Assembly: GCA_025924315.1 (NCBI GenBank)
Contig: JAICIO010000059.1
Span: forward strand, 1-33,293
Source: Phycisphaerae bacterium
GTDB taxonomy: Bacteria > Planctomycetota > Phycisphaerae > Tepidisphaerales > Tepidisphaeraceae
Reading direction: 5' to 3'
DNA: 33,293 bases
The position numbers and the translations under genes were made by a program. This document shows positions 6,035 to 27,812 of this stretch, one piece after another. The notes under the pieces are model-generated. The model did not search any database and had not been told where the DNA came from. It saw nothing but the letters and a program-made list of their open reading frames with translations. Each line of letters begins with the position of its first letter. Position 1 is the stretch's first letter.

Positions 6035-6589
6035 ATGATGCAGTTGATCGAAACCGCCATCCCTGCCGTGAAAATCCTCGTGCCGAAAAAGCACGGGGAC
6101 CATCGCGGATTTTTTTCTGAGACGTATTCGCAGAAGACGCTGCACGATGTCGGCATCGACAGCGTCTTCGTCCAGGACAACCATTCCCTGTCGGCCGAGA
6201 AGGGCGTCGTCCGCGGGCTGCACTGGCAGATCGCACCGATGGCGCAGGACAAGCTCGTGCGCGTGACTCGCGGAGCGATCCTCGACGTCGCCGTCGATAT
6301 TCGTCGCGGTTCACCGACCTTCGGCAAACACGTGACTGCCGTCCTCAGCGCCGAAAACTGGCACCAAATCTTTGTTCCCGTCGGCTTCGCCCACGGCTTC
6401 ACCACGCTCGAGCCGAACACGGAAGTGCTCTACAAGGTGACGACGTACTACTCGCCCACCCACGAACGCGGAATTCGCTGGAACGATCCGAAGCTCGGCA
6501 TCGACTGGCGGGTCGACGAATCCGGCGCCACGCTGTCCGCCCGCGACCGTGAGCATCCGATGTTTGCGGACGCGAAAGACCTTTTTTAG
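6035..6589 (+). CDS. rfbC: dTDP-4-dehydrorhamnose 3,5-epimerase (RfbC/RmlC)
   Basis: The third step of dTDP-L-rhamnose synthesis, a cupin enzyme of 184 residues, which is the normal length. Diagnostic blocks are HGDHRGFFSETYS at the N-terminus, NHSLSAEKGVVRGLHWQ with catalytic His63, the barrel strand LVRVTRGAILDVAVDIRRGSPTFG (read as two motifs), FVPVGFAHGF, and the C-terminal GIRWNDPKLGIDW. Two ATG codons are adjacent (6035, 6038). First gene of the rhamnose cluster; a family A repeat follows its stop, so it may be transcribed separately from rfbA. Confidence 0.96.
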   Translation: MMQLIETAIPAVKILVPKKHGDHRGFFSETYSQKTLHDVGIDSVFVQDNHSLSAEKGVVRGLHWQIAPMAQDKLVRVTRGAILDVAVDIRRGSPTFGKHVTAVLSAENWHQIFVPVGFAHGFTTLEPNTEVLYKVTTYYSPTHERGIRWNDPKLGIDWRVDESGATLSARDREHPMFADAKDLF

Positions 6590-6593
6590 TTTT

Positions 6594-6668
6594 GTAGGGT
6601 CCGCTTCAGCGGACCGGTTACTCGCCTTTCGGACGATGGAATAACCGGTCCGCTAAAGCGGACCCTAC
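6594..6668. repeat. Two-armed inverted repeat, family A (GGTCCGC variant)
   Basis: The outer ends GTAGGGTCCGC and GCGGACCCTAC mirror each other. The hairpin core is GGTCCGC-TTCA-GCGGACC, so relative to the copy at 816 both sides of the stem have changed together. It separates rfbC from rfbA. Confidence 0.92.
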
Positions 6669-6769
6669 AATTGCGGTCCGATAACGCTCGCGATTGGCTT
6701 TCACCGCACCGATGTTGTATCTAAAAGAACTTGGCGCGCATGTCCTGCGCGCGTGATTCGGGAGCGACC

Positions 6770-7642
6770 ATGAAAGGAATTATCCTCGCGGGCGGCGCGG
6801 GTACGCGGCTTTATCCGCTGACCGCCTGCATCAGCAAGCAGCTGCTCCCGGTCTATGACAAGCCAACCATCTACTATCCGCTGAGCGTGCTCATGCTCGC
6901 GGGGCTGCGCGAGATTCTGATCATCAGCACACCGCGGGATCTGCCGATGATCGAGCGATTGCTCGGCGACGGCTCGCAGATCGGTCTTAAGCTCTCGTAC
7001 AAAGTTCAGCCGGAACCGAAAGGCATTGCTCAGGCTTTCACGCTCGGCGCCGAATTCATCGGCAACGATTCCGTCTGCCTCATCCTTGGCGACAACGTTT
7101 TCTACGGCCACGATCTCACCACGCTTGTGCAGAACGCGACGACGCTGAAGAACGGAGCCTGCGTCTTCGCGTATCAGGTGAAAGACCCCGAACGTTACGG
7201 AGTCGTCGAGTTTTCGAAAGATGGCAAAGCCATCAGCATCGAAGAAAAGCCGAAGCAACCGAAGAGCAACTACGCGGTTGTCGGCCTGTACTTTTACGAC
7301 AACAAAGTCGTGAACATTACGCAGAACCTGAAGCCCTCGGCTCGCGGCGAGCTGGAGATCACGGACGTGAACCGCGTTTATCTCGCCAATGGGACGCTCA
7401 CGGTTCAACCCATGGGCCGCGGGATTGCGTGGCTCGATACGGGAACGTACGAATCGCTGCTGTCGAGCTCCCAATTCGTGCAGACATTGGAAGAACGGCA
7501 GGGATTGAAAATCGGCTGCATCGAGGAAATCGCGTTCGCACAGAAATTCATCGATGGCGCGCAGCTGCAAAAGCTCGCGGATCAGGCTGGGAAAAGTGAT
7601 TATGGAAATTACCTGCGGCGAGTGTTGAAGGATGCCATGTAG
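6770..7642 (+). CDS. rfbA: Glucose-1-phosphate thymidylyltransferase (RfbA/RmlA)
   Basis: The first step of dTDP-L-rhamnose synthesis: joins dTTP and glucose-1-phosphate to give dTDP-glucose. The 290-residue length is typical of RmlA. The nucleotide-binding signature [18 protein letters not shown] opens the protein; [17 protein letters not shown], the metal-binding [32 protein letters not shown] and [15 protein letters not shown] follow. ATG at 6770 is chosen because the family begins exactly here, with GGAG just upstream. Its stop TAG (7640-7642) is the beginning of a family A repeat. The repeat lies between rfbA and rfbB, which are 78 bases apart. Confidence 0.97.
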
Positions 7643-7699
7643 GGTGTGCTTCAGCACACCATCCGGTGCGCAGAAATGGTGTGCTGAAGCACACCCTAC
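7639..7699. repeat. Two-armed inverted repeat, family A (GGTGTGC variant)
   Basis: GTAGGGTGTGCTTCAGCACA at the left and its reverse complement at the right end (to 7699). The hairpin core is GGTGTGC-TTCA-GCACACC, a third version with paired substitutions. Its TAG is the stop codon of rfbA. Confidence 0.92.
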
Positions 7700-7720
7700 G
7701 AAGAAATCGAAGAACGAACC

Positions 7721-8746
7721 ATGCGAAGCATTCTCGTCACCGGCGCCGCCGGATTCATCGGTAGCAATTTCGTCCGCATGCTCATGAGCCGCGGCGAAGA
7801 CGTGAAGCTCGTCGTGCTCGACAAGCTCACTTACGCCGGCAACATCGCCAATATTCAGGATCTGATCGACGACGAGAAACTCTTCTTCGTCAAAGGCGAC
7901 ATCTGCGACGCCGCCCTTGTCGAGCAACTCTGGACGAATCACGCGATCAACCAGGTCGTTCACTTCGCCGCCGAGTCGCATGTCGATCGCTCGATTCTCT
8001 CGTCCGGGCCATTTGTGCAAACCAATGTCGTCGGCACGCAGGTGCTGCTCGACGTCGCGAAAGCGAAGGGCGTCGATCGCTTCGTGCATGTCAGCACCGA
8101 CGAAGTCTACGGCTCGCTTCCGGAAGACAAGCCGGACGTGAAATTCACCGAAGAAACTTCTCTCGCGCCGAATAGCCCGTACAGCGCCAGCAAAGCCGGC
8201 AGCGACTGCCTCGCGCGATCGTATTTTCACACGCATCATTTGCCGGTGATGATCACGCGCTGCAGCAACAACTACGGCCCATACCAATTCCCCGAGAAAG
8301 CGCTTCCGCTGTTCATCACCAACCTGATGGAAGGGAAAAAGATCCCCCTTTACGGCGACGGCATGAATATCCGCGATTGGCTCTACGTCGAAGATCACTG
8401 CGACGCGATCTGGACCGTGCTGAATAAAGGCACGCCCGGCGAGGTCTACAACATCGGCGGAAATAACGAGATGACGAACCGCAAAATCGTGGAGACGATT
8501 CTGCGCGAGATGGGCAAGACCTGGGACGACGGCGTGCAGTACGTGAAAGATCGCCCCGGCCACGATCGTCGCTACGCCATCGACGCCAGCAAGATCAAGC
8601 GCGAGCTCGGCTGGGAGCCCAAGCACCGCTGGGAACAGGCGATCAAAACCACGATCCAATGGTTCAAGGATCACCAGGACTGGTGGCGCGCGATCAAGAG
8701 TGGTGAATATCTCAAGTATTACGATCAACAATACACGCAGCGATAA
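7721..8746 (+). CDS. rfbB: dTDP-glucose 4,6-dehydratase (RfbB/RmlB)
   Basis: The second step of dTDP-L-rhamnose synthesis, an extended short-chain dehydrogenase of 341 residues. The NAD-binding motif GAAGFIGSN is at 8-16. The dehydratase triad STDEVYG gives Thr126, Asp127 and Glu128, and the catalytic YxxxK is Tyr154/Lys158 (PYSASKAG). The substrate-binding block NNYGPYQFPEKALPLFI and the C-terminal RPGHDRRYAIDASK are typical of RmlB and separate it from UDP-sugar epimerases. It stands 78 bases after rfbA, with the intervening repeat, and is followed by a short GC-rich hairpin. Confidence 0.97.
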   Translation: MRSILVTGAAGFIGSNFVRMLMSRGEDVKLVVLDKLTYAGNIANIQDLIDDEKLFFVKGDICDAALVEQLWTNHAINQVVHFAAESHVDRSILSSGPFVQTNVVGTQVLLDVAKAKGVDRFVHVSTDEVYGSLPEDKPDVKFTEETSLAPNSPYSASKAGSDCLARSYFHTHHLPVMITRCSNNYGPYQFPEKALPLFITNLMEGKKIPLYGDGMNIRDWLYVEDHCDAIWTVLNKGTPGEVYNIGGNNEMTNRKIVETILREMGKTWDDGVQYVKDRPGHDRRYAIDASKIKRELGWEPKHRWEQAIKTTIQWFKDHQDWWRAIKSGEYLKYYDQQYTQR

Positions 8747-8759
8747 ACCCACATTTAGC

Positions 8760-8777
8760 CGCGGGGCTCGCCCCGCG
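8760..8777. repeat. Small GC-rich hairpin after rfbB
   Basis: CGCGGGG-CTCG-CCCCGCG, a perfect 7-bp stem with a 4-base loop. No run of T follows, so it is not a standard intrinsic terminator; it may be a short REP-like unit or an mRNA stabiliser. Confidence 0.7.
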
Positions 8778-8796
8778 CGAAACGTCGAAGCGCAAA

Positions 8797-9303
8797 ATGC
8801 CCTCGCCGAACGACCAAGCCGTAACGATCCGTTCCGCCACCGAAGCAGACGTCCCCACAATCCTTTCCTTCATCCGCGCGCTCGCGGAGTACGAAAAACT
8901 CGCCCATCAATGCATCGCGACGGAGGGGGATCTGCGCAAAACATTGTTTGGCGCCCGTCGCTATGCTGAAGTGCTCATCGCGCGCATCGGCGACGTTCCG
9001 GTTGGACAGGCGCTCTTCTTCCACAACTACTCGACCTTCCTCGCCCGTCCCGGCATTTACATCGAAGACATCTTCGTCCTGCCCGAATATCGCGGTCGTG
9101 GCGCCGGAAAGGCGCTGTTGCAATCGGTCGCGAAGATCGCTCGCGAGTGGAATTGCGGGCGGCTGGAGTGGGCGGTGCTTGACTGGAACCAGCTCGCGAT
9201 CGATTTTTACGAGCGCTGCGGCGCGGACGTCATGCCGGACTGGCGGATTTGCCGGATGAACGACCTGCAGCTCGCGAAATTCACGGAAGGATTGACGAAG
9301 TGA
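8797..9303 (+). CDS. GNAT N-acetyltransferase, SSAT-like (diamine/thialysine type)
   Basis: A 168-residue acetyltransferase resembling the spermidine/spermine (SAT1/SAT2) and thialysine acetyltransferase group: ALAEYEKL near residue 30, FGARRYAEVLIA, LFFHNYSTFLARPGIYIEDIFV, the acetyl-CoA motif LPEYRGRGAGKALLQSV, and the group's ending LDWNQLAIDFYERCGADVMPDWRICRM. It probably acetylates a small amine such as a polyamine or lysine analogue; the exact substrate is inferred from family only. Its stop overlaps the GTG start of rfbD by four bases (GTGA at 9300-9303), so the two are probably translated together, though it has no known step in rhamnose synthesis. Confidence 0.88.
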   Translation: MPSPNDQAVTIRSATEADVPTILSFIRALAEYEKLAHQCIATEGDLRKTLFGARRYAEVLIARIGDVPVGQALFFHNYSTFLARPGIYIEDIFVLPEYRGRGAGKALLQSVAKIAREWNCGRLEWAVLDWNQLAIDFYERCGADVMPDWRICRMNDLQLAKFTEGLTK

Positions 9304-10175
9304 GCCTGTACGACAGCATCGTGATCACTGGGGCGGCGGGGATGCTTGCACATGCCCTCAAGCGGGCTTTCAAAGCTCGCCGACTGTCTTTCAACGCGGT
9401 CGCTCGAAGGGAATGGGACATCACTGACCCACCGCAGATCGAATTGATGTTCGAAGACTACCAACCGACGCTTGTGCTGAACTGCGCCGCTTACACGAAG
9501 GTCGATCTGTGCGAAGAAAAACAGGCCGAGTGCAATGATGTGAATGGAACAGCTGTCGAATCGCTGGCAGAAATATGTCGCGAGCGTCGTGCCGCTCTAG
9601 TCCATTTCAGCACAGATTATGTGTTTGATGGGAGTCTTTCGCGGCCACTTCGTCCCGATGATCCGATTGGGCCGCAAAGCGCGTATGGCCGATCCAAGCT
9701 TCTCGGTGAACAACTCCTTCAGGCAAAGGCACCTGAACGATGGTTACTCATCCGCACCGCCTGGCTCTACGGTCCGAACGGCTCATGCTTTCCGCAGACG
9801 ATGATCAACGCCGCGAAATCCGGCAAGCCGCTGAAGGTCGTGAACGATCAAACCGGCACGCCGACGTTCACTTACGATCTCGCAGAGGCGACGCTCGATC
9901 TGCTGGATCGCAACGCGACCGGAATTTGGCATATCACCAATTCCGGTGAGACGACGTGGTTCGATTTCACGCGCGCAATTATCGAAGAGTTCAACCTGAA
10001 GACAGATCTTTCGCCAACGACATCGGCGGAGTGGAAAAAACTCAAACCCAACTCCGCCATCCGTCCCGCGTACAGCGTGCTCGATGTTTCGCCGTACGAA
10101 AAGCTCGTCGGCAAACCGATGCCACACTGGCGAGATGCACTGCACCGCTATCGCCTCGCGCTCGAGACGCCATGA
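9300..10175 (+). CDS. rfbD: dTDP-4-dehydrorhamnose reductase (RfbD/RmlD)
   Basis: The last step of dTDP-L-rhamnose synthesis: NAD(P)H-dependent reduction of dTDP-4-keto-L-rhamnose. With the GTG start at 9300 the protein has 291 residues, the normal length, and begins just before the nucleotide-binding motif ITGAAGMLAHAL. Further signatures are the REWDITD block, LNCAAYTKVDLCE, LVHFSTDYVFDGS, the catalytic YGRSKLLGE (YxxxK), IRTAWLYGPNG and NDQTGTPTFTYDLAEAT. GGAAGGA lies just before the GTG. An earlier in-frame ATG exists inside the acetyltransferase gene, but it would add unrelated residues. The four-base overlap with the upstream gene suggests translational coupling. Confidence 0.95.
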   Translation: MSLYDSIVITGAAGMLAHALKRAFKARRLSFNAVARREWDITDPPQIELMFEDYQPTLVLNCAAYTKVDLCEEKQAECNDVNGTAVESLAEICRERRAALVHFSTDYVFDGSLSRPLRPDDPIGPQSAYGRSKLLGEQLLQAKAPERWLLIRTAWLYGPNGSCFPQTMINAAKSGKPLKVVNDQTGTPTFTYDLAEATLDLLDRNATGIWHITNSGETTWFDFTRAIIEEFNLKTDLSPTTSAEWKKLKPNSAIRPAYSVLDVSPYEKLVGKPMPHWRDALHRYRLALETP

Positions 10176-10179
10176 TCAT

Positions 10180-10241
10180 GTGGCACAGCCGCCCTCGGCT
10201 GTGCTCCGCATCGCAAGTACTTCCGGGGGCGGCTGTGCCAC
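10180..10241. repeat. Inverted repeat, family B copy 1
   Basis: The left arm starts GTGGCACAGCCGCCCTCGGC and the right end is GGGGGCGGCTGTGCCAC. The left arm also folds on itself (CACAGCCG/CGGCTGTG). It starts five bases after the rfbD stop. A second copy lies at 20896-20970. Confidence 0.9.
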
Positions 10242-10267
10242 ATTGCCGCCGGGTCTACAATTTGGGT

Positions 10268-10567
10268 ATGAACGAATCGTACGAACGCTGCGAGCTTTGC
10301 GGGCGCGAGGTGCCGCGGCACTTGATTACGCAGCATCATCTGACACCGAAAGAGCGCGGCGGAAAGCCCGAGCACCGCGTGCCGTTTTGCAAACCGTGTC
10401 ACAAGCAGGTGCATGCGCTGTTCGATAACAAGCAGCTCGAGAAACAGCTGGCCGACGTGAAATCACTCCATAAAACCCCTGAACTGCAAAAGTTTATCCG
10501 CTGGATCCGCAAACAACCGGCGACGGCGAATGTGACGACGCGGACGTCAAAGTCTCGCTCGAGGTGA
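10268..10567 (+). CDS. Small HNH-type zinc protein
   Basis: A 99-residue protein with the layout of a compact HNH nuclease-like domain: CELC (Cys8, Cys11), the histidine pair His23-His24 in TQHHLTPKERGG, and FCKPCHKQVH (Cys41, Cys44, His45, His49). The four cysteines probably bind structural zinc and His23/His24 occupy the catalytic position; the usual central Asn is not obvious, so nuclease activity is uncertain. The C-terminal third is Lys/Arg-rich. ATG at 10268 is taken because upstream in-frame sequence is repeat DNA. Its TGA overlaps the GTG of the next gene by four bases. Restriction or housekeeping role cannot be decided. Confidence 0.75.
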   Translation: MNESYERCELCGREVPRHLITQHHLTPKERGGKPEHRVPFCKPCHKQVHALFDNKQLEKQLADVKSLHKTPELQKFIRWIRKQPATANVTTRTSKSRSR

Positions 10568-11063
10568 GAGAGCGCATGGGCAGCTGGAACGACAGTGATT
10601 TTCCGTCGCGCGAAGGTGACGAATTCGATTTGCTTCCGCTGTGGCGCGAAGCGGTCGGGCAGTTTCGTTTGACCGAGCATTCAATTCACGGTCCGCGGCA
10701 CTGGCGGGCGGTGCATTACAAGGGGACGTCGCTGTGCGAGGAGACCGGGGCGGATCGATTCGTCGTTCGCCTCTTCGCGGTTTTGCACGATTCACAACGA
10801 TCAACGAAGTGAGCGATCCAAAGCATGGCGATCGCGCAGCGAACTGGGCGAAATCCCTCCGCGGGGAATTCTTCGAATTGGACGACGAGCGCTTCGGGTT
10901 CCTTCGTTACGCGCTCATCTGGCACGACAAGGGGTTGACGAGCGAGGACGCGACCATCGGCACGTGTTGGGACGCGGACCGGTTGGATCTTCCGCGCGTG
11001 GGAATTCCACCGATCGCGAAGTTTATGAGCACGGACGCGGGGAAGAGTCGTACGACGGGTTAA
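10564..11063 (+). pseudogene. HD-domain protein broken by a one-base frameshift
   Basis: The first part (10564-10800) encodes about 79 residues ending HGPRHWRAVHYKG and RLFAVLHDSQR. The second part, in another frame from 10803 to the stop at 11061-11063, continues with NEVSDPKHGDRAANWA, YALIWHDKG and TCWDADRLDLPRVGI. Together they make one HD-like metal-dependent phosphohydrolase of about 166 residues, with the histidine of HGPRHW, the HD of LHDS, and the Asp of CWDADRLD. The frame changes at about 10801-10802 and is explained by loss of one base after CGA. There is no homopolymer there, so a real mutation is as likely as a read error. The GTG start overlaps the HNH gene stop (GTGA); an ATG at 10576 is an alternative. 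Confidence 0.75.
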
Positions 11064-11072
11064 ACCATGAAA

Positions 11073-11160
11073 TTGCAAGCGGGAGCCCAGCGACTCTGTC
11101 GCGGGTTGTGAGAACGTAGGTTTAAAACCCGCGACGGAGTCGCCGGGCTCCCGCTTGCAA
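11073..11160. repeat. Long inverted repeat, family E
   Basis: Two 35-base arms (11073-11107 and 11126-11160) match in reverse complement at 33 positions. The left arm begins TTGCAAGCGGGAGCCCAGCG. The 18-base loop includes AACGTAGG. It begins nine bases after the HD-gene stop. Confidence 0.9.
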
Positions 11161-11221
11161 CTGACGGGTGATCCTCTTCTTTACGTATTCGAAAAATTGC
11201 GGTGCGATTCGACGCGCGCAT

Positions 11222-11248
11222 AAAAAAGCCGTCCCGGGCAAGGACGGC
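11222..11248 (-). terminator. Rho-independent terminator on the minus strand
   Basis: Read on the minus strand: GCCGTCC (11248-11242), a 7-base loop, GGACGGC (11234-11228), then six U (11227-11222). The T-run is on one side only, so it serves a minus-strand transcript. No minus-strand gene is recognised before it. Confidence 0.75.
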
Positions 11249-11697
11249 TCGAATGGGGCTGGTGAAAGATTCTTCGGGTTGTGGGAGAGAAGAATCCTTC
11301 ACATCGGGGGAAGAATGGGCTGAAATTTTAAATCTGACCCTCTGTCTCATGGAGGCATACGGCCAGACGTTGTAGGAAGGAACAACCCGGATGCCAGACG
11401 ATTCGCGAAAAATGCTTGCAGTTGGAGTGCTGCATCTAAGGGGCGCAGAAATCGGCGGTTATGAAGTGCTTCAGGAAAAACGAAGCAAAAACTTGCCTTT
11501 TTCATCCACACGTTATCGACGACACAATGACCCCTTGTCGTACCTTAAGTGCGACTTTCGCGGTTTCGTGTCGCATCGAAACACAATCTGTTGATTCTGA
11601 AATATGCTTGATGTGGATGGATTGTGGATGAGCATAGGGGCACTGGTGAATCGGTAGTCGAGGGCTACAATCCCGCCCGCTGATTCGGAGGTCTAAA
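11249..11697. other. Gene-free region with structured minus-strand RNA candidate and DnaA-box-like sites
   Basis: No recognisable protein is encoded here. Next to the minus-strand terminator there is a second perfect hairpin, GATTCTTC (11268-11275) against GAAGAATC (11289-11296), and further along GTTGT/ACAAC around TAGGAAGGA-like sequence (about 11369-11386). At 11502-11510 there is TCATCCACA, and at 11612-11620 and 11623-11631 the opposite-strand forms TGTGGATGG and TGTGGATGA; these are one or two bases from the DnaA-box consensus. An A/T-richer patch (about 11470-11505) lies beside the first. A small plus-strand frame starting at 11391 is not convincing as a gene. Confidence 0.5.
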
Positions 11698-12636
11698 TTG
11701 CGCGTACTCGTCACCGGCGGAGCCGGGTTCATTGGATCGAATCTTGCCAAGCGGCTTGCCAAAGACGGCCACGATGTCGTCGCGGCCGACTCGTTTCTCT
11801 CCGCCCACTTCTTGAATCTTGTCGACTTCCCCGGGGACGTGCTCACCCTGAGAGATCACGAGGACGTGCAGTCGATGATCGACCTCGGCCGGTTCGACGC
11901 GATCTTTCATGAAGCGAGCATCACCGGCGTGGTTGGCGCCAACGGCGAGAACTTCAACGATCAGCAGAGGATGATGCGGAACAACGTGGAGACCTTCCGC
12001 CAGCTGCTCGATTGGTCGGTCGAAACAAAAGCCCAGATGATCTGGGCGAGCAGCTGCAGCATCTACGGCCGCGGCGCGGTGCCGATGAAGGAATCGCAAG
12101 CGCCCGATCCGCTGAACATCTATGCCTTCAGCAAGCTGACGATGGAGCGCATGGCCGCGCGGTACGCGCCCAGGCTCGCCAAACCAATCGTCGGCCTGCG
12201 TTACAGCAACGTGTACGGCCCCGGCGAAGATCACAAGGGCAAGCTCGCCAGCATGATTCATCAGCTCGCCAAGCAGATGCGTGCGGGGAAGCGTCCCCGC
12301 ATCTTCACTGCCGGCGAGCAGAAACGCGATTTCGTTTATATCGACGACGTCGTCGACGTGAATCTCAAGGCGATGAAGTCGAAGACGAGTGGCGCATTCA
12401 ACGCGGGCGCGGGCGCCGCATGGTCGTTCAATCAAGTCGTCGCGGAGCTGAATCGCGTGCTCAAGACGGACCTTCAGCCGGACTACTTCACGAATCCGTA
12501 CTCGTTTACGCAGGACTGGACGCAGACGGATCTGTCGGCCGCGAAAGCCGCGTTCGGGTACGCGCCGCAGTACGACCTCGCGAAGGGGATCGACGCATAT
12601 CACGCGTCCGGCAAGCTCGGCATTTCGTTCGCGTGA
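11698..12636 (+). CDS. NAD-dependent sugar-nucleotide epimerase, HldD-like
   Basis: A 312-residue extended short-chain dehydrogenase. The TTG start at 11698 is supported by GGAGG six bases upstream and by the protein opening directly into the NAD-binding strand (LVTGGAGFIGSN). The catalytic region is SSCSIYGRG with YAFSKL (YxxxK). The blocks FLNLVDFPGD, YSNVYGPGEDHKGKLASMI, GKRPRIFTAGEQKRDFVYI and FNAGAGAAWSFNQVV most resemble ADP-L-glycero-D-manno-heptose 6-epimerase (HldD/RfaD), which makes the heptose of LPS inner core. Without the other heptose genes nearby, a related sugar-nucleotide 4- or 6-epimerase cannot be excluded. It is a single gene followed 67 bases later by the radical SAM gene. 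Confidence 0.85.
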   Translation: MRVLVTGGAGFIGSNLAKRLAKDGHDVVAADSFLSAHFLNLVDFPGDVLTLRDHEDVQSMIDLGRFDAIFHEASITGVVGANGENFNDQQRMMRNNVETFRQLLDWSVETKAQMIWASSCSIYGRGAVPMKESQAPDPLNIYAFSKLTMERMAARYAPRLAKPIVGLRYSNVYGPGEDHKGKLASMIHQLAKQMRAGKRPRIFTAGEQKRDFVYIDDVVDVNLKAMKSKTSGAFNAGAGAAWSFNQVVAELNRVLKTDLQPDYFTNPYSFTQDWTQTDLSAAKAAFGYAPQYDLAKGIDAYHASGKLGISFA

Positions 12637-12703
12637 GCTTTCAACACATTTGAAAGGAGTTCGGTAAAAGTTCGGTTATCCTCCGCGTCGAGAAAGGGAC
12701 GCG

Positions 12704-13957
12704 ATGGACCTCCGCGCTAAGCTCGCCATTCTCGCCGATGCCGCGAAGTACGATGCTTCCTGTGCAAGCAGCGGATCGAAACGCCGTGCGCGTGACGGGC
12801 AGCTTGGTGACACGAACAAAATCGGCATCTGTCACAGCTACACGCCCGACGGCCGATGCGTCTCGCTGCTGAAAATTCTGCTCACCAATTACTGCATTTA
12901 CGACTGTCAATACTGCGTCAACCGCGTTTCATCCGATTCGCCTCGCGCGCGCTTTACTCCAGAAGAAGTCGTCCGTCTGACGCTCGAGTTTTACAAACGC
13001 AACTACATCGAAGGCCTCTTCCTTAGCTCAGGCGTGATTCAATCTGCCGATCACACGATGGAACAGCTCGTCGAGGTGGCGAGATCCCTTCGGGAAGATC
13101 ACAAGTACAACGGGTACATCCATCTGAAGGCGGTACCGGGCGCATCGGAAGATCTCATGGCGCAGGCGGGGCGATATGCCGATCGACTCAGCGCGAATAT
13201 TGAGCTGCCCACACAGCGCGACCTGCAGCAACTCGCACCGGAAAAGAAACTAATCGACATTCACCGCACGATGGTGCAGCTGAAAGTGCGTATTGCGGCG
13301 GCGAAGGAGGAGCAGAGGGCGAGCAAGCGTGCGCCGCAGTTCGCACCGGCGGGGCAGTCGACGCAAATGATCGTTGGCGCGACACCGAGCACCGACGCGC
13401 AGATTTTAACGACGGCAGATTCCCTTTATCGCACCCATCGATTGCGGCGCGTGTATTACTCTGCGTTCAGTCCGATTCCGCACGCGGACCTGCGCCTGCC
13501 GACAAAATCCCCACCGCTCGTTCGCGAAAATCGGCTGTATCAGGCCGATTGGCTTTTGCGCTTTTACGGATTCAAGGTCCACGAGCTGACCACGCCGGAC
13601 GATCCGCAGCTTGACCTTTCGATCGATCCCAAAACCGCCTGGGCCCTGCGCCATCGCGAACAATTCCCGGTGGATGTGAACCGGGCGAGCCGCGAGTTGC
13701 TGCTGCGCGTGCCGGGACTCGGCGCGCGAAATGTTCAGCGGATTCTGCAGATCCGCCGGCTGCACTCGATTCGGCTTTCCGATCTGCTCAAACTACGCGT
13801 GCCGATGGCGCGAGCGAAGTATTTCGTCGTAACCGCCGACCATAATCCCGATTCGCTGCGGATTGATCGCATGAATCTGCGGTCGCGTGTTGTGAAGCCG
13901 GAGCAACAGTTGAATCTGTTCGAGGTCGCGGTGAGCGCAAAGACGGGGGAGATCTAG
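12704..13957 (+). CDS. Radical SAM protein with helix-hairpin-helix (putative DNA repair/modification)
   Basis: A 417-residue radical S-adenosylmethionine enzyme of the group annotated as putative DNA modification/repair radical SAM protein (TIGR03916-like). The cluster motif CxxxCxxC is Cys64, Cys68 and Cys71 (NYCIYDCQYC). Additional conserved-looking cysteines at 20, 43 and 52 precede it and could bind another metal site. The C-terminal part (about 325-390) has a helix-hairpin-helix DNA-binding motif around VNRASRELLLRVPGLGARNV, plus a second similar helical unit. AAAGGGA lies before the ATG. The partner gene downstream (14029) is a DUF4130-UdgX fusion, the usual companion of this family, so the pair probably acts on damaged DNA; the reaction is unknown. 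Confidence 0.9.
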   Translation: MDLRAKLAILADAAKYDASCASSGSKRRARDGQLGDTNKIGICHSYTPDGRCVSLLKILLTNYCIYDCQYCVNRVSSDSPRARFTPEEVVRLTLEFYKRNYIEGLFLSSGVIQSADHTMEQLVEVARSLREDHKYNGYIHLKAVPGASEDLMAQAGRYADRLSANIELPTQRDLQQLAPEKKLIDIHRTMVQLKVRIAAAKEEQRASKRAPQFAPAGQSTQMIVGATPSTDAQILTTADSLYRTHRLRRVYYSAFSPIPHADLRLPTKSPPLVRENRLYQADWLLRFYGFKVHELTTPDDPQLDLSIDPKTAWALRHREQFPVDVNRASRELLLRVPGLGARNVQRILQIRRLHSIRLSDLLKLRVPMARAKYFVVTADHNPDSLRIDRMNLRSRVVKPEQQLNLFEVAVSAKTGEI

Positions 13958-13965
13958 TCGTCCGT

Positions 13966-14017
13966 ACGTGACATGGCCTTGCAGGCCGTGCGCATGGCCT
14001 GGAAGGCCCTGTCACGT
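13966..14017. repeat. Inverted repeat between the radical SAM and UdgX genes, family H
   Basis: Arms 13966-13987 (ACGTGACATGGCCTTGCAGG onward) and 13996-14017 pair at 20 of 22 positions around a short loop. It fills the 71-base gap between the two genes, and may thin out readthrough or protect the upstream mRNA. Confidence 0.85.
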
Positions 14018-14028
14018 TGTGGCTTAAG

Positions 14029-15456
14029 ATGACGAACGCAGTACACATTCAGCGCAGCTTCGAAGCGTGGCGAGACGCCGCGAGGAAGCTCATCGCGCTC
14101 GACGTTCCACCGGATGCTATCGCATGGATTGATGACGACTCGTCATCGCTTTTGCCGGAGCTTGATTTGCCCGACGCGGCGCCCTCGGCATTTCAAGTTC
14201 CCGCCGAATTTGTCGGCTTCTCGCGCCTCGTCGCCTGCTTTCGCGATCCGCAGCGATGGGCGCTTCTCTATCGCATGCTTTGGCGGCTGACCCATGGCGA
14301 GAAGCAGTTGCTGCAGGACGCGACCGACGACGACACGCATCGGTTCTTCGCAATGCACCGCAAGGTGCGCCTCGATCGCCACAAGATGACCGCGTTCGTG
14401 CGCTTTCGTGCGGTTCAGTCGGAAGATGGATCGGAGCCGCACTACATCGCGTGGCATCGGCCGGACCATTTTATCCTGCGTCTCACGGCTCCGTTTTTTC
14501 AACGTCGCTTCGCAAGTATGAAATGGACTATCCTGACGCCTGACGAGAGCGTTACCTGGGATGGGACCGACCTTCGCTTCAGCGAGGGCGTGCCCGCGTC
14601 GCAGGCGCCGGCGGGCGATGAGTTGGAGACGCTTTGGCGAACGTATTACGCGAACAGTTTCAACCCGGCTCGGTTGAACCTGAAGATGATGCGCCGCGAG
14701 ATGCCGGTGCGGCATTGGGCGACGCTGCCGGAGACGGAGGTAATCGATGACCTCATCCGAGAAGCGCCCAGGCGCGTGGAGGAGATGGTGAAGAAGCAAA
14801 CGGCGACGAAGTGCAAATCGACCGGATCGGCCGCGGATTTTCTTCCGCCGCGGATTTCGCTTCCGCAGCTGCGCGATGCGATTCAGGGCTGCCGTGGTTG
14901 CGACTTGTATTGCAACGCGACGCAGGCGGTATTCGGCGAGGGCCCGAAGGACGCGTCGATCATTTTCGTCGGTGAACAGCCAGGCGATCAGGAGGACCTC
15001 GCGGGCAAACCGTTCGTCGGCCCATCGGGTCATTTGCTCGATGAGGTGATGGAGGAAGTCGGCATTCCGCGTGATGAGGTGTACGTGACGAACGCGGTGA
15101 AACATTTCAAATTTGAGCCGCGCGGCACGCGGCGAATTCACGCGAAGCCGAATGCACGTGAGATGGCGGCATGCAAGCCGTGGTTGGCCTCTGAGATTTC
15201 GGTCATCAAACCAGAGATCGTCGTCTGCCTCGGATCCACGGCGGCTCAACAACTCTTAGGCAAACAATTCCGCGTCACGAAATCCCGCGGCGAGTGGATC
15301 AAAACCGATTTCGCACCGCGCGTGATGGCGACGGTGCATCCGTCGTCACTATTGCGGATGCCCGATCACGATGCGCGTGTTCAGGCGCGGAAGATGTTCA
15401 CGCATGACCTGAATCTTGTCGCGAAGGCGCTGCGGAAGATGAAGGCAAGTGCGTAG
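14029..15456 (+). CDS. udgX: DUF4130 - UdgX-family uracil-DNA-binding fusion protein
   Basis: A 475-residue two-domain protein. The N-terminal half (about 1-260) is the DUF4130 / SAM-associated DNA metabolism domain, with LLYRMLWRLTHGE, MHRKVRLDRHKMTAFVRFR and HYIAWHRPDHFIL. A short linker leads to a UdgX-type uracil-DNA glycosylase (about 285-470). That domain has the iron-sulfur cysteines CRGCDLYC, the uracil-pocket motif GEQPGDQED (315-323), the UdgX-specific loop ending RRIH with His371, and HPSSLLR (His437). In characterised UdgX proteins the histidine of this loop forms a covalent bond with the abasic site after uracil removal. ATG at 14029 is chosen over a TTG 12 bases earlier; neither has a strong ribosome site. 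It is probably co-expressed with the radical SAM gene. Confidence 0.93.
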   Translation: MTNAVHIQRSFEAWRDAARKLIALDVPPDAIAWIDDDSSSLLPELDLPDAAPSAFQVPAEFVGFSRLVACFRDPQRWALLYRMLWRLTHGEKQLLQDATDDDTHRFFAMHRKVRLDRHKMTAFVRFRAVQSEDGSEPHYIAWHRPDHFILRLTAPFFQRRFASMKWTILTPDESVTWDGTDLRFSEGVPASQAPAGDELETLWRTYYANSFNPARLNLKMMRREMPVRHWATLPETEVIDDLIREAPRRVEEMVKKQTATKCKSTGSAADFLPPRISLPQLRDAIQGCRGCDLYCNATQAVFGEGPKDASIIFVGEQPGDQEDLAGKPFVGPSGHLLDEVMEEVGIPRDEVYVTNAVKHFKFEPRGTRRIHAKPNAREMAACKPWLASEISVIKPEIVVCLGSTAAQQLLGKQFRVTKSRGEWIKTDFAPRVMATVHPSSLLRMPDHDARVQARKMFTHDLNLVAKALRKMKASA

Positions 15457-20895: not shown

Positions 20896-20970
20896 GTGGC
20901 ACAGCCGCCCTCGGCTGTGCTCCTGGGGATGCCGCGCGAAGCGAAGCACAGCCGAGGGCGGCTGTGCCAC
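20896..20970. repeat. Inverted repeat, family B copy 2
   Basis: Left arm starts GTGGCACAGCCGCCCTCGGC, identical in its first 26 bases to copy 1 at 10180; the right arm ends GAGGGCGGCTGTGCCAC. It lies between paralog 2 and the ECF sigma gene, ending 18 bases before the sigma start, so it is in the probable leader of that gene. Confidence 0.92.
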
Positions 20971-20988
20971 ATGCAGCGAGCGTCAATC

Positions 20989-21543
20989 ATGGCCGACACC
21001 AAGCCCGATCAAACCGGTTCTTCATCCTCGCGTGATCGCTCCGCGGAGGAGTTGTTGCCGGCGATTTATGACGAGCTGAAAAACCTCGCGATCCATCGCA
21101 TGGCACAGGAACGGCCGGGGATCACGCTGCAGGCGACGGCGCTCGTGCATGAGGCGTATTTGCGACTGGGGACGTCGAAATTCGCGAACAAGGCTCATTT
21201 CTTTCACGCCGCCGCGGAGGCAATGCGGCGAATCCTCATCGAATCGGCCCGAAAACGCGGACGCGTGAAGCGCGGCGCGGGCATGAAGCAGCTGCCAATG
21301 AACGTGCTCGATTTGGCGGTCGCGCCCGATCCGACAGAAATCGTGGCGTTCGATGACGCGATTCGGCGCCTTGAAGAACAGACGCCGTTAGCCGCACAGG
21401 TCGTGCGGCTGCGTTTTTATGCCGGATTGACGGTCGACGAGGCGGCCGAGGCGATGAACGTGTCGCCGCGAACGATCAACCGCGAGTGGACGTTCGCGAG
21501 GGCGTGGCTGTTTCGCGAGTTGAATCAGGCGGAGACGGAATGA
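20989..21543 (+). CDS. ECF-type RNA polymerase sigma factor (TIGR02999-like)
   Basis: A 184-residue extracytoplasmic-function sigma factor. Region 2 is DELKNLAIHRMAQERPGITL, ATALVHEAYLRL and the DNA-melting/-10-reading helix HFFHAAAEAMRRILIESARK; region 4 is LRFYAGLTVDEAAEAMNVSP with the recognition helix RTINREWTFARAWLFREL. This layout is the subgroup common in planctomycetes and acidobacteria that is encoded next to Ser/Thr kinases instead of an anti-sigma factor. Start at 20989 (MADTKP) is preferred; an in-frame ATG at 20971 lies at the edge of the repeat. No anti-sigma gene is seen. The kinase at 21736 is the probable upstream regulator, by phosphorylation or common pathway (inference). 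Confidence 0.93.
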   Translation: MADTKPDQTGSSSSRDRSAEELLPAIYDELKNLAIHRMAQERPGITLQATALVHEAYLRLGTSKFANKAHFFHAAAEAMRRILIESARKRGRVKRGAGMKQLPMNVLDLAVAPDPTEIVAFDDAIRRLEEQTPLAAQVVRLRFYAGLTVDEAAEAMNVSPRTINREWTFARAWLFRELNQAETE

Positions 21544-21566
21544 CGGACGTCGTTCGGCGAACACCC

Positions 21567-21694
21567 GTCATCCTGAGAGCGTGTGATCTTTTCAGCGTGG
21601 CGAGGGCATCTTGCCCTCGCGAACGCGGCTGTAGCCGCAAATGCGAGGGCGAGACGCCCTCGCCACGCAAAAAATCACAGACTCTCAGGATGAC
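21567..21694. repeat. 128-base palindromic repeat, family C copy 2
   Basis: Outer arms GTCATCCTGAGAGCGTGTGA (from 21567) and ATCACAGACTCTCAGGATGAC (ending 21694, shown shortened) enclose the 74-base core 21595-21668 that is 71/74 identical to copy 1. It occupies most of the gap between the sigma gene and the kinase gene. Confidence 0.93.
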
Positions 21695-21735
21695 ACTTCC
21701 AACACCTGTGCGCGGCAAATCGTGGCGACTGTGAA

Positions 21736-23550
21736 ATGCAAACCGCGGAACCTCCTGGCGATCCAGTGCGAGAGATTTTCGATCACGCGGTCGAACTGCG
21801 CGCCGAAGAGCGGGAGGCGTTCATCAAGGCTGTCTGCGGCGGAGATGCGGATCTGCTCAAAAAAGTTCGCGAGCTGCTCGAGGCGCATGACTCCGCCGGC
21901 GCGTTTCTCAGCGATCCGGCGATCGACCCGGCGGCGCTGGGTGGGGAGTTGCCGGCGACGGGGCATCGGATTGGTCCGTACAAGCTGCTTCGCGTGCTCG
22001 GTGAAGGAGGCTACGGCGTAGTTTACCTCGCGGAGCAGGATCCGCCGCTGCGGCGACGCGTGGCGCTGAAAGTCATCAAGGCCGGCATGGACACGCGACA
22101 AGTCATCGCGCGATTTGATGTGGAACGACAGGCCCTGGCACTGCTCGATCATCCCGGAATTTCCAGGGTGCTCGACGCCGGCGCGACCGAAGCCGGTCGG
22201 CCGTACTTCGTGATGGAGCTCGTCGAAGGTGAGCCGATCACACGGTATTGCCAGAAGCATCACACGCGTCTCGACGATCGCCTGCGACTTTTCATCGGCG
22301 TGTGCGCCGCGGTTCAGCACGCACACTCGCGTGGGATTCTGCATCGCGATATCAAGCCGGGAAATGTGCTCGTCAGCACGCAGGATGGTCAGCCGATCGC
22401 AAAGGTGATTGACTTTGGGATCGCCAAGGCGATCGGCCGTGAGGACGGGCAAACGATTTCGCCGTCGCTCACGCTCGAAGCACAAATGCTCGGCACGCCG
22501 CAGTACATGAGCCCGGAGCAGGCGGATCCGTCGCATGCCCACGTCGATTCGCGGACGGATGTGTACGGCCTCGGCGGATTGTTGTACGAGCTGCTGTGCG
22601 ACGCTCCGCCGCTCGCGCCGGAACTCTTCAAACGCGCCGCCATCGGAGAAACCGCGAGGATTCTCACGGAAGTTGATCCGCCGCTGCCGAGTACGCGCGT
22701 GCTCGCGACCGAAGTCTCTCCGAAGCATGTGCATCAGCTCAAGCGCTGGTCGCGGCGCCTTCGCGGCGATCTCGATCGCATCGCGGCCAAGGCGCTGGAG
22801 AAAGATCCATCGCGGCGGTACGAGAATCCGGAAGAACTCGCCGCCGACGTGCGCCGGTACCTCGAGCACGAGCCCGTGCTGGCCCGCGGGCGCGGCGCGC
22901 TTTACCGTGCTCGAAAGTTCACGATTCGACGTCGTCGCGCGATTGGACTCTTTCTCATCGCGATCATTTGCGGTGGGATTGGCTCGGGCATCGCACTATC
23001 GCTGCGGCGTCCGCTTCCCCCGAAAACATCGCTCGTGCCGACCACATTCCCCACGACTTCGACCGCACTTGTTCCCGCGACGAAACCGCTTGAGCCGCTG
23101 CTGCCGGGCTTGATCGGTCGCTACTATTCCGACATCGAATTCAAACATTTCGTCACGCAGCGGATCGATCGGGAGATCGAGTTTCACTGGTCGACTGGTG
23201 TTGCGCCCGCGCCGGGCGTCGGCACGCCGAAGTACGGCGTGCGATGGACCGGCGTCGTCATCGTTCCGTCCGGCGGAATCAAGCGCATCGGTTTCTATGC
23301 CGACGACGGCGCCCGTCTGCGAATCGACGGCCAGCTGAAGATCGAAACGCATTCGCCAATGCGGCTCGACACGGGCCCAGAGGAAACAATTTCTCCGGGC
23401 CGACATACAATTCAACTCGACTATTGGAACAAATTCTCGCTCGGCGACGTCAGGCTGCACTGGGCGATTCACCCCGGAAAAGTCGAGCCAATCCCGGCAG
23501 ATTGCCTGTTTCACACTGCCTCCGACGCCGCACTTCCGACCACCCGATGA
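21736..23550 (+). CDS. Transmembrane Ser/Thr protein kinase with extracellular PA14 domain
   Basis: A 604-residue receptor-like Hanks kinase. An N-terminal segment (1-75) precedes the kinase (about 80-380): glycine loop GEGGYGVVY, ATP-binding Lys112 in VALKVIK, catalytic Asp205 in HRDIKPGNV, DFG Asp226, and SPEQ in the activation segment. All catalytic residues are present. A single membrane helix (about 403-422, GLFLIAIICGGIGSGIAL) leads through a Pro/Thr-rich linker to a PA14-like domain (about 456-600: LIGRYYSDIEFK, RWTGVVIVPSGG, YADDGARLRIDG, ISPGRHTIQLDYWNK). PA14 domains often bind carbohydrate, so the kinase may sense glycans outside the cell membrane. The ECF sigma gene 192 bases upstream is the probable target pathway. 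Confidence 0.94.
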   Translation: MQTAEPPGDPVREIFDHAVELRAEEREAFIKAVCGGDADLLKKVRELLEAHDSAGAFLSDPAIDPAALGGELPATGHRIGPYKLLRVLGEGGYGVVYLAEQDPPLRRRVALKVIKAGMDTRQVIARFDVERQALALLDHPGISRVLDAGATEAGRPYFVMELVEGEPITRYCQKHHTRLDDRLRLFIGVCAAVQHAHSRGILHRDIKPGNVLVSTQDGQPIAKVIDFGIAKAIGREDGQTISPSLTLEAQMLGTPQYMSPEQADPSHAHVDSRTDVYGLGGLLYELLCDAPPLAPELFKRAAIGETARILTEVDPPLPSTRVLATEVSPKHVHQLKRWSRRLRGDLDRIAAKALEKDPSRRYENPEELAADVRRYLEHEPVLARGRGALYRARKFTIRRRRAIGLFLIAIICGGIGSGIALSLRRPLPPKTSLVPTTFPTTSTALVPATKPLEPLLPGLIGRYYSDIEFKHFVTQRIDREIEFHWSTGVAPAPGVGTPKYGVRWTGVVIVPSGGIKRIGFYADDGARLRIDGQLKIETHSPMRLDTGPEETISPGRHTIQLDYWNKFSLGDVRLHWAIHPGKVEPIPADCLFHTASDAALPTTR

Positions 23551-27331: not shown

Positions 27332-27713
27332 GGGGGCGATCGGTTTCGACCGGGTGGCTACGGTGGTGGTGGCATGCAGGGGACGCTCACTTGGCCCCTT
27401 AAAAATGTGAGCAAACATCAACTGCCAATAACAGTGATGTCGCTGGTCGCGTTGGTTTCAACGCCCAGCTCGCAATGGCTGCCTAATTAACTAGGTGGTC
27501 TCGGCACAGTGCGGATGTCTGCGACGCGCTGGCTGAAAACAGCAGGCTGGTCCTTTGATTCGGTCGTTGGTCAGAGGATGAGATAAAGACGGCTGGAGCC
27601 TGATGCAGGGTGCTCGTGTTCGGCGTCAGGATCGAGATCAAAACGCGAGATAAGCATGTAGAGGCCACGACTGGCGTTACTTCGGGACGAGGGTTCAATT
27701 CCCTCCGCCTCCA
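27332..27713 (+). ncRNA. ssrA: Transfer-messenger RNA (tmRNA, one-piece)
   Basis: Rescues stalled ribosomes with SmpB and tags the nascent chain. The 5' end GGGGGCG pairs with CGCCTCC (27706-27712), including the G3-U pair expected for alanine charging, and A27713 is the discriminator; CCA is not encoded. The T arm is GAGGG-TTCAATT-CCCTC (27689-27705). The tRNA-like 5' region contains the typical GGTTTCGAC block. The reading frame at 27424-27483 encodes the 20-residue tag ANNSDVAGRVGFNAQLAMAA, then TAA (27484-27486); resume codon is GCC. A TTGACA at 27290-27295 may be its -35 box, though no good -10 follows. Length is 382 bases, normal for bacteria. Confidence 0.96.
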
Positions 27714-27812
27714 TTCGACTCGCTGCGCTCGCTCATGGCGGGCCAGCGAGCGGGGAATTACGCATGCTTCATTCGGGGAGACGACTCACGAACACAAAGC
27801 AGCGAGTCGAAT
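27713..27812. repeat. Inverted repeat directly after tmRNA
   Basis: ATTCGACTCGCTGC (27713-27726) and GCAGCGAGTCGAAT (27799-27812) are perfect reverse complements, with CGCTC-rich sequence between. The left arm starts at the tmRNA discriminator base. A GCGCAGCGCATCGAAGGG unit follows at about 27825-27842. The segment between tmRNA and the next gene carries no other feature that I see. Confidence 0.8.

Follow-up and report, generated by a model that had tools for sequence, protein, structure and literature searches.

A putative small RNA gene with a sigma-54-type promoter in Tepidisphaeraceae (Planctomycetota)

The minus strand of the window, which is the whole stretch of 33,293 nucleotides that was analysed (lineage Planctomycetota, Phycisphaerae, Tepidisphaerales), appears to encode a small regulatory RNA without a counterpart in Rfam 15. 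As far as sequence comparison goes, the RNA gene and its promoter are well supported; the targets and the inducing signal are proposals. Our preferred reading, to which we assign a probability of about 0.65, is a gene for a trans-acting small RNA, transcribed by sigma-54 polymerase with the help of an enhancer-binding protein, whose C-rich stretches would pair with G-rich ribosome-binding sites without Hfq. The small RNA probably tunes other genes through such base pairing.

Planctomycetes are poorly sampled for regulatory RNA; the table of one review gives a count of 8 for the PVC group versus 345 for Proteobacteria (PMC9029176). In 14 genomes without detected Hfq, the sequence itself here reveals an RNA gene together with its promoter and likely enhancer. 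The locus lends itself to direct tests of small RNA regulation without Hfq, and gives a way into the role of sigma-54 in planctomycetes.

Structure and covariation

A structured small RNA on the minus strand had been proposed in a preliminary description of this DNA, and it is now supported by homologues, compensatory changes, an asymmetry of G-U pairs, a promoter-like site on the same strand and the lack of a conserved reading frame. The sigma-54-type promoter, the upstream sites and the C-rich stretches had all escaped that description. The features are collected in Table 1.

Table 1. Coordinates of the predicted RNA, its parts, its control elements and the divergent neighbouring gene
Feature	Position in window	Strand	Remarks
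Predicted small RNA, about 150 nt, from start to end of U-tract	11222-11371	-	Start placed from the -12 element; three-hairpin fold, -50.5 kcal/mol
Conserved RNA core, model R1	11221-11323	-	115.4 bits in own genome
5' hairpin P1	11332-11368	-	Fold kept without sequence conservation
C-rich stretch 1, GCCCAUUCUUCCCCCGAUG	11302-11320	-	94% mean column identity in alignment A3; mean unpaired probability 0.89
Hairpin P2, 14-bp stem and 13-nt loop	11262-11302	-	Both-side changes in 9 of 14 pairs
C-rich stretch 2 (P2 loop), UCUCCCACAACCC	11276-11288	-	92% mean column identity; unpaired probability 1.0
C-rich stretch 3, CAGCCCCAUUCG	11250-11261	-	94% mean column identity; unpaired probability 0.89
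Hairpin P3 and U-tract, intrinsic terminator	11222-11250	-	Both-side changes in 4 of 11 pairs; 99.2% of cells paired
Sigma-54-type -24/-12 element, CTGGCATCCGGGTTGTT	11381-11397	-	9 of 12 consensus positions
TGTCG/CGACA half-site cluster, putative enhancer (UAS), including palindrome GTCGCACTTAAGGTACGAC (11537-11555)	11514-11577	-	Pentamer enrichment
Sugar-nucleotide epimerase gene, nearest to ADP-glyceromanno-heptose 6-epimerase	11698-12636	+	TIGR02197 261.5 bits, below the cut-off of 274.6; PF01370

A 199-nt piece of the minus strand has a folding energy of -61.9 kcal/mol (z = -3.43), matched by one of 200 shuffles. In the predicted fold of the window transcript, the 150 nt form three hairpins and leave the C-rich stretches unpaired; only the one in P2 is an apical loop, the other two being linkers. 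The terminator claimed earlier proved exact, with its minus-strand stem at 11228-11248 and its U6 at 11227-11222. The perfect 8-bp stem reported before (11268-11275 with 11289-11296) is also present, as the inner part of the 14-bp stem of P2 (11262-11275 with 11289-11302), in which a single pair reads as G-U on the minus and as A-C on the plus strand. The position given for a third hairpin, 11370-11386, was wrong: this span holds the predicted start and the -12 region, and the actual 5' hairpin is P1. A weak hairpin-like site at 11385-11399 mostly coincides with the -24/-12 element. A consensus scan of 9500-13500 found 7 terminator-like sites versus 4.6 +/- 2.4 in shuffles, so such a scan alone proves no terminator.

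The alignment A3 and the covariance model R1 were both built from 11 sequences, leaving out a near-duplicate (L011) and a truncated copy (L013). In A3, 92.5% of the pair cells are standard, and the two 3' hairpins, P2 and P3, covary, with changes on both sides in 13 of 25 pairs, a number that none of 500 shuffles equalled. None of the five covariation measures was reached in these shuffles, a test that relatedness among the sequences may inflate; when the partners were slid by one to three columns, a control that retains the relatedness, the pairing signal broke and the values were far lower. Furthermore, G-U cells outnumber A-C cells (25 vs 8), as expected if the minus strand is the one transcribed. 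The leader sequence of P1 differs among the loci and its fold is retained: over 14 loci the mean z against shuffles was -2.79, with p <= 0.02 in 10 of them, 0.047-0.063 in three and no signal in the remaining one (L065).

Another aspect to mention is where the sequence itself is kept. The C-rich stretches show 92-94% identity in A3 versus 75% for the P2 stem, which fits a contact made by sequence. Counting against our preferred reading, the stem and the loop of P3 (90% and 96%) are on a par with some of the C-rich parts.

Distribution among relatives

The family, which we take to be the Tepidisphaeraceae, is represented by 26 genomes, 14 of which contain the RNA core. A covariance search in relatives, the kind of check put forward in the preliminary description, matched it in 13 of the 26 at 47-122 bits, high scores that arise partly by construction since most of the 14 positive genomes also built R1; neither G041 nor G022 (congeneric with G001) contributed to the model. 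The remaining copy, in G010, is cut by a contig end and was detected by BLAST. The other 12 of the 26 genomes have no clear copy. A DNA search of 41 genomes recovered the stretch in its own genome, where it is single-copy, and in 13 others, one of which, G025 (23 bases, E 0.0036), shares just a terminator-like piece and was not counted. A weak R1 match in G016 (L036, 24.2 bits), which rests on the terminator and lacks the C-rich stretches, was not counted either.

Among 298 genomes sampled from the class, R1 gave no convincing match outside the family. Three weak matches outside the family (L037-L039, 23-25 bits) are based on the terminator, without C-rich stretches; three at a per-genome E <= 0.01 are what chance would give in such a sample. 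A pattern scan of named genomes returned 14 stretches: seven fit R1 (87-122 bits) and come from Phycisphaerae or Phycisphaerales bacteria and one Tepidisphaeraceae bacterium, and seven do not, including one labelled Planctomycetaceae (L041). Viral contigs gave 0 matches.

At the gathering score, Rfam 15 recognized only tmRNA in the window and in the loci of six relatives, and at E <= 10 no family fitted the region 11050-11750; the miRNA-like matches obtained belong to a palindrome at 11073-11161 and not to the small RNA. Literature searches limited to open-licence papers turned up no description of this RNA. It appears to be a real small RNA family absent from Rfam 15, whose control would be unusually readable from the sequence. 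The tmRNA gene of the window (27332-27716) lies about 16 kb from the small RNA; in two relatives it is at most 1.8 kb away (L055 3267-3647, L058 3578-3936).

Promoter and upstream sites

The consensus used for sigma-54 promoters was TGGCACGN4TTGCW. A GG-containing -24/-12 site matching it at 8 or more of 12 positions stands 57-87 nt before the core in 13 of the 14 loci, and the -24 element reads GGCA in all 13; L062 is the sole locus without such a site. The -12 element is TTGTT in 7 of the 14 loci, in place of the TTGCW of the consensus. Over the 14 loci the mean score was 9.14, versus 6.63 (sd 0.30) in shuffles, and none of 1000 shuffle sets scored as high. No sigma-70-type site was found in 9500-13500.

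Further upstream, about 170 nt before the predicted start and within the 100-200 nt expected for enhancers of sigma-54-dependent small RNAs, lie the TGTCG/CGACA half-sites. Between -300 and -150 the 14 loci contain 33 of these pentamers versus 6.7 +/- 2.4 in shuffles, 19 of which fall in the bin from -250 to -200, in 11 of the loci. Promoter and UAS regions were picked after inspecting the sequences and these figures are therefore descriptive, although the effect is large enough for this to hardly matter. The half-sites partly form palindromes, as TGTCGTACTTCAAATACGACA in L058 and TGTCGCAGAGAGTGCGACA in L060. Searched in the own genome with one mismatch, the UAS pattern gave 9 sites versus 5 for the control, an uninformative result, and the palindrome of the window is spaced differently. 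Taken together, the -24/-12 site and the distant half-sites correspond to the layout of an enhancer-activated sigma-54 promoter; transcription would be by sigma-54 polymerase and begin at the predicted start site.

The machinery for such control seems available in the family. An RpoN domain was detected in 24 of the 26 genomes and an activator domain in all 26, the latter matches including weaker relatives, as control genomes without sigma-54 also match. The own genome has ten activator domain matches; six of the activators were scanned, and a seventh region, L171, gave no open reading frame after filtering. Control of the PrsR/PEP-CTERM kind was considered and rejected: the six own activators scanned all stayed below the cut-offs of PrsR and of the other models shown. 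For the divergent epimerase gene, candidate sigma-54 sites in 10 loci scored 7-9 of 12 at scattered positions and were unconvincing. In L057 (G023), the sequence CGCCCACAACCCGCCCATT just upstream of the -24 element echoes the wording of the C-rich parts of the RNA.

Neighbouring genes

The epimerase gene is adjacent and divergent to the RNA in 10 of the 14 loci. The orthologue of G013 is located elsewhere in the genome, and no orthologue was detected in G004, G007 or G023. It is also carried by eight genomes that have no accepted RNA match (in two pieces in G009), so the gene can evidently do without the RNA. Unfiltered R1 searches of the epimerase loci in these eight genomes gave only weak terminator-like matches, namely L227 2596-2686 (G009, 20.7 bits), L225 1194-1274 (G012, 15.5 bits) and L215 1226-1318 (G016, 12.4 bits), which may be diverged relatives or unrelated terminators. 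An envelope role is hinted at by the usual heptose-epimerase-like neighbour.

The other side of the RNA is occupied by dTDP-rhamnose genes in the window, and protein similarity places such genes there in L054, L055 and L062 as well; the run in the window (6035-10175) comprises rmlC, rmlA, rmlB, an acetyltransferase gene and rmlD, according to Pfam. Between the RNA terminator and the upstream gene lies the long palindrome mentioned above (11073-11161; GCAAGCGGGAGCCC..., both arms), which is REP- or MITE-like. Elsewhere in the window, DUF4130 and uracil-DNA glycosylase domains share one reading frame (14017-15456), and an ECF sigma factor gene is followed by one for a protein kinase with a PA14 domain (20896-23550), perhaps a signalling pair.

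Proposed mechanism and targets

Under the preferred reading, a signal-responsive enhancer-binding protein would bind the TGTCG/CGACA sites, which lie about 170 nt upstream, and, once bound, would switch on sigma-54 RNA polymerase at the -24/-12 site; both steps are suggested by the conserved sequence. Transcription would then stop at the intrinsic terminator, giving an RNA of about 150 nt which, by comparison and folding, is predicted to have three hairpins and three exposed C-rich stretches. These stretches may pair with the G-rich ribosome-binding sites of target mRNAs, mainly blocking translation. The pairing would proceed without Hfq: the 26 family genomes gave no Hfq match, in a search that detected the control genomes, and so Hfq could not help the RNA to act. 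Envelope or surface-sugar genes might be among the targets, a faint suggestion that comes from the usual heptose-epimerase-like neighbour.

The searches for complementary sites gave the following picture. In the 14 genomes there is no enrichment of long sites perfectly complementary to the C-rich stretches. With at most one mismatch, GGGGGAAGAATGGG hit the RNA gene itself and scattered sites in these genomes, and GGGTTGTGGGAG showed no excess over its reversed control (490 vs 660, summed). A pseudopilin leader in G013 (L151, C1 about 3750372-3750383) carries, directly ahead of the start codon, 13 nt perfectly complementary to the P2 loop and at first looked promising. This candidate was rejected: homologues were located at 37 places in the 14 genomes, 16 of which were read and 14 yielded a leader, and among these 14 the complement is present only in G013's own. 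Duplex energies for leaders were set aside, as they ignore internal folding.

A more specific version of the scheme is tentative, and we consider it possible rather than probable: an Hfq-free riboregulator under sigma-54 and an enhancer-binding protein, independently evolved with GlmY-like wiring, that would serve as a readout of the envelope's state or that of surface-sugar precursors, and repress several mRNAs with G-rich leaders, envelope genes included, by means of three C-rich arms.

Alternative explanations

The RNA could instead be a decoy whose C-rich stretches titrate an RNA-binding protein when the sigma-54 promoter is active, much as CrcZ titrates Hfq-Crc. Sigma-54-type control is indeed shared with CrcZ and CrcY, as described in the text cited (PMC8657755), C-rich sequence recurs in the RNA (two CCCAUU-like blocks and one loop) and complementary genomic sites are not enriched; but Hfq had no match in the 26 genomes, no candidate C-binding protein is known in them, and C-rich-loop small RNAs studied elsewhere, such as sX13, are described as pairing with mRNAs (PMC3771888). 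We regard the decoy as unlikely. Less probable still is a real RNA independent of sigma-54, the -24/-12 match being some other conserved promoter or protein site. The TTGTT form of the -12 element, the site-less locus L062 and a start site placed by prediction from the -12 element are in its favour, whereas the correctly spaced GGCA conserved in 13 of 14 loci, the mean score absent from the shuffle sets, the distant half-sites and the lack of a sigma-70-type site in the region scanned argue for sigma-54.

Coding of a short protein, which had been named as a finding that would speak against an RNA, has very little in its favour beyond a 96-aa minus-strand frame (11060-11350) that overlaps the RNA. 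No frame with a shared start is open in the 11 aligned relatives, and the earlier statement that the terminator has no minus-strand gene to end holds as far as tested; no reading frame is conserved, insertions and deletions are not multiples of three, stops fall in varying frames over the 11 rows, the single conserved AUG is directly followed by UGA in 5 of them, and the changes track base pairs. Equally improbable is that the stretch serves a longer minus-strand transcript as its cis-acting leader or terminator: it ends in a terminator that no conserved gene follows, and the neighbour on the promoter side is divergent. As for a mobile or repeated hairpin, or a chance structure beside the palindrome that adjoins the stretch in the window, we give it almost no weight: the RNA is single-copy in its own genome, its position is mostly the same across the 14 genomes that keep it, and a 14-mer of the palindrome is in none of the relatives' loci.

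Comparison with known systems

The trans-acting small RNA that we favour shares traits with several described RNAs, compared here with what the cited texts give. GlmY of Enterobacteriaceae is a small RNA with a sigma-54 promoter under QseF/GlrR control, the QseF site being TGTCN10GACA (PMC8745638), and is linked to the cell envelope (PMC7073468, PMC6075780). The locus resembles it in the sigma-54-type promoter before a small RNA and in upstream sites built on TGTC/GACA. Unlike in GlmY, the half-sites are TGTCG/CGACA with variable spacing, there are C-rich stretches, the phylum is another one and no link to RapZ or glmS is known; the GlmY/GlmZ model of Rfam had no match in the window at the gathering score, nor in 11050-11750 at E <= 10.

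The sX13 RNA of Xanthomonas targets G-rich motifs near start codons and does so independently of Hfq (PMC3771888). With it, with the UCCC-motif RNAs of S. aureus and with HPnc5490 of H. pylori, as they are described, our predicted RNA has in common a length of about 115-150 nt, three hairpins and C-rich single strands; it differs from them in having one C-rich apical loop and two C-rich linkers, in its sigma-54-type promoter and in the lack of a sequence match in Rfam. CrcZ and CrcY of Pseudomonas have RpoN-dependent promoters and the enhancer-binding protein CbrB (PMC8657755), a layout of the sigma-54-type, enhancer-activated kind like the one seen here, but they sequester Hfq-Crc, whereas no Hfq was found in the 26 genomes and the conserved stretches here are C-rich. 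The Rhodopirellula-1 motif, a structured RNA candidate from Proteobacteria and Planctomycetes with no Rfam number (PMC2864571), is alike as a structured candidate from Planctomycetes, a likeness by description and not by alignment. As far as can be read, then, the small RNA would resemble sX13 in its C-rich design and GlmY in its control, and neither of them by any sequence feature tested.
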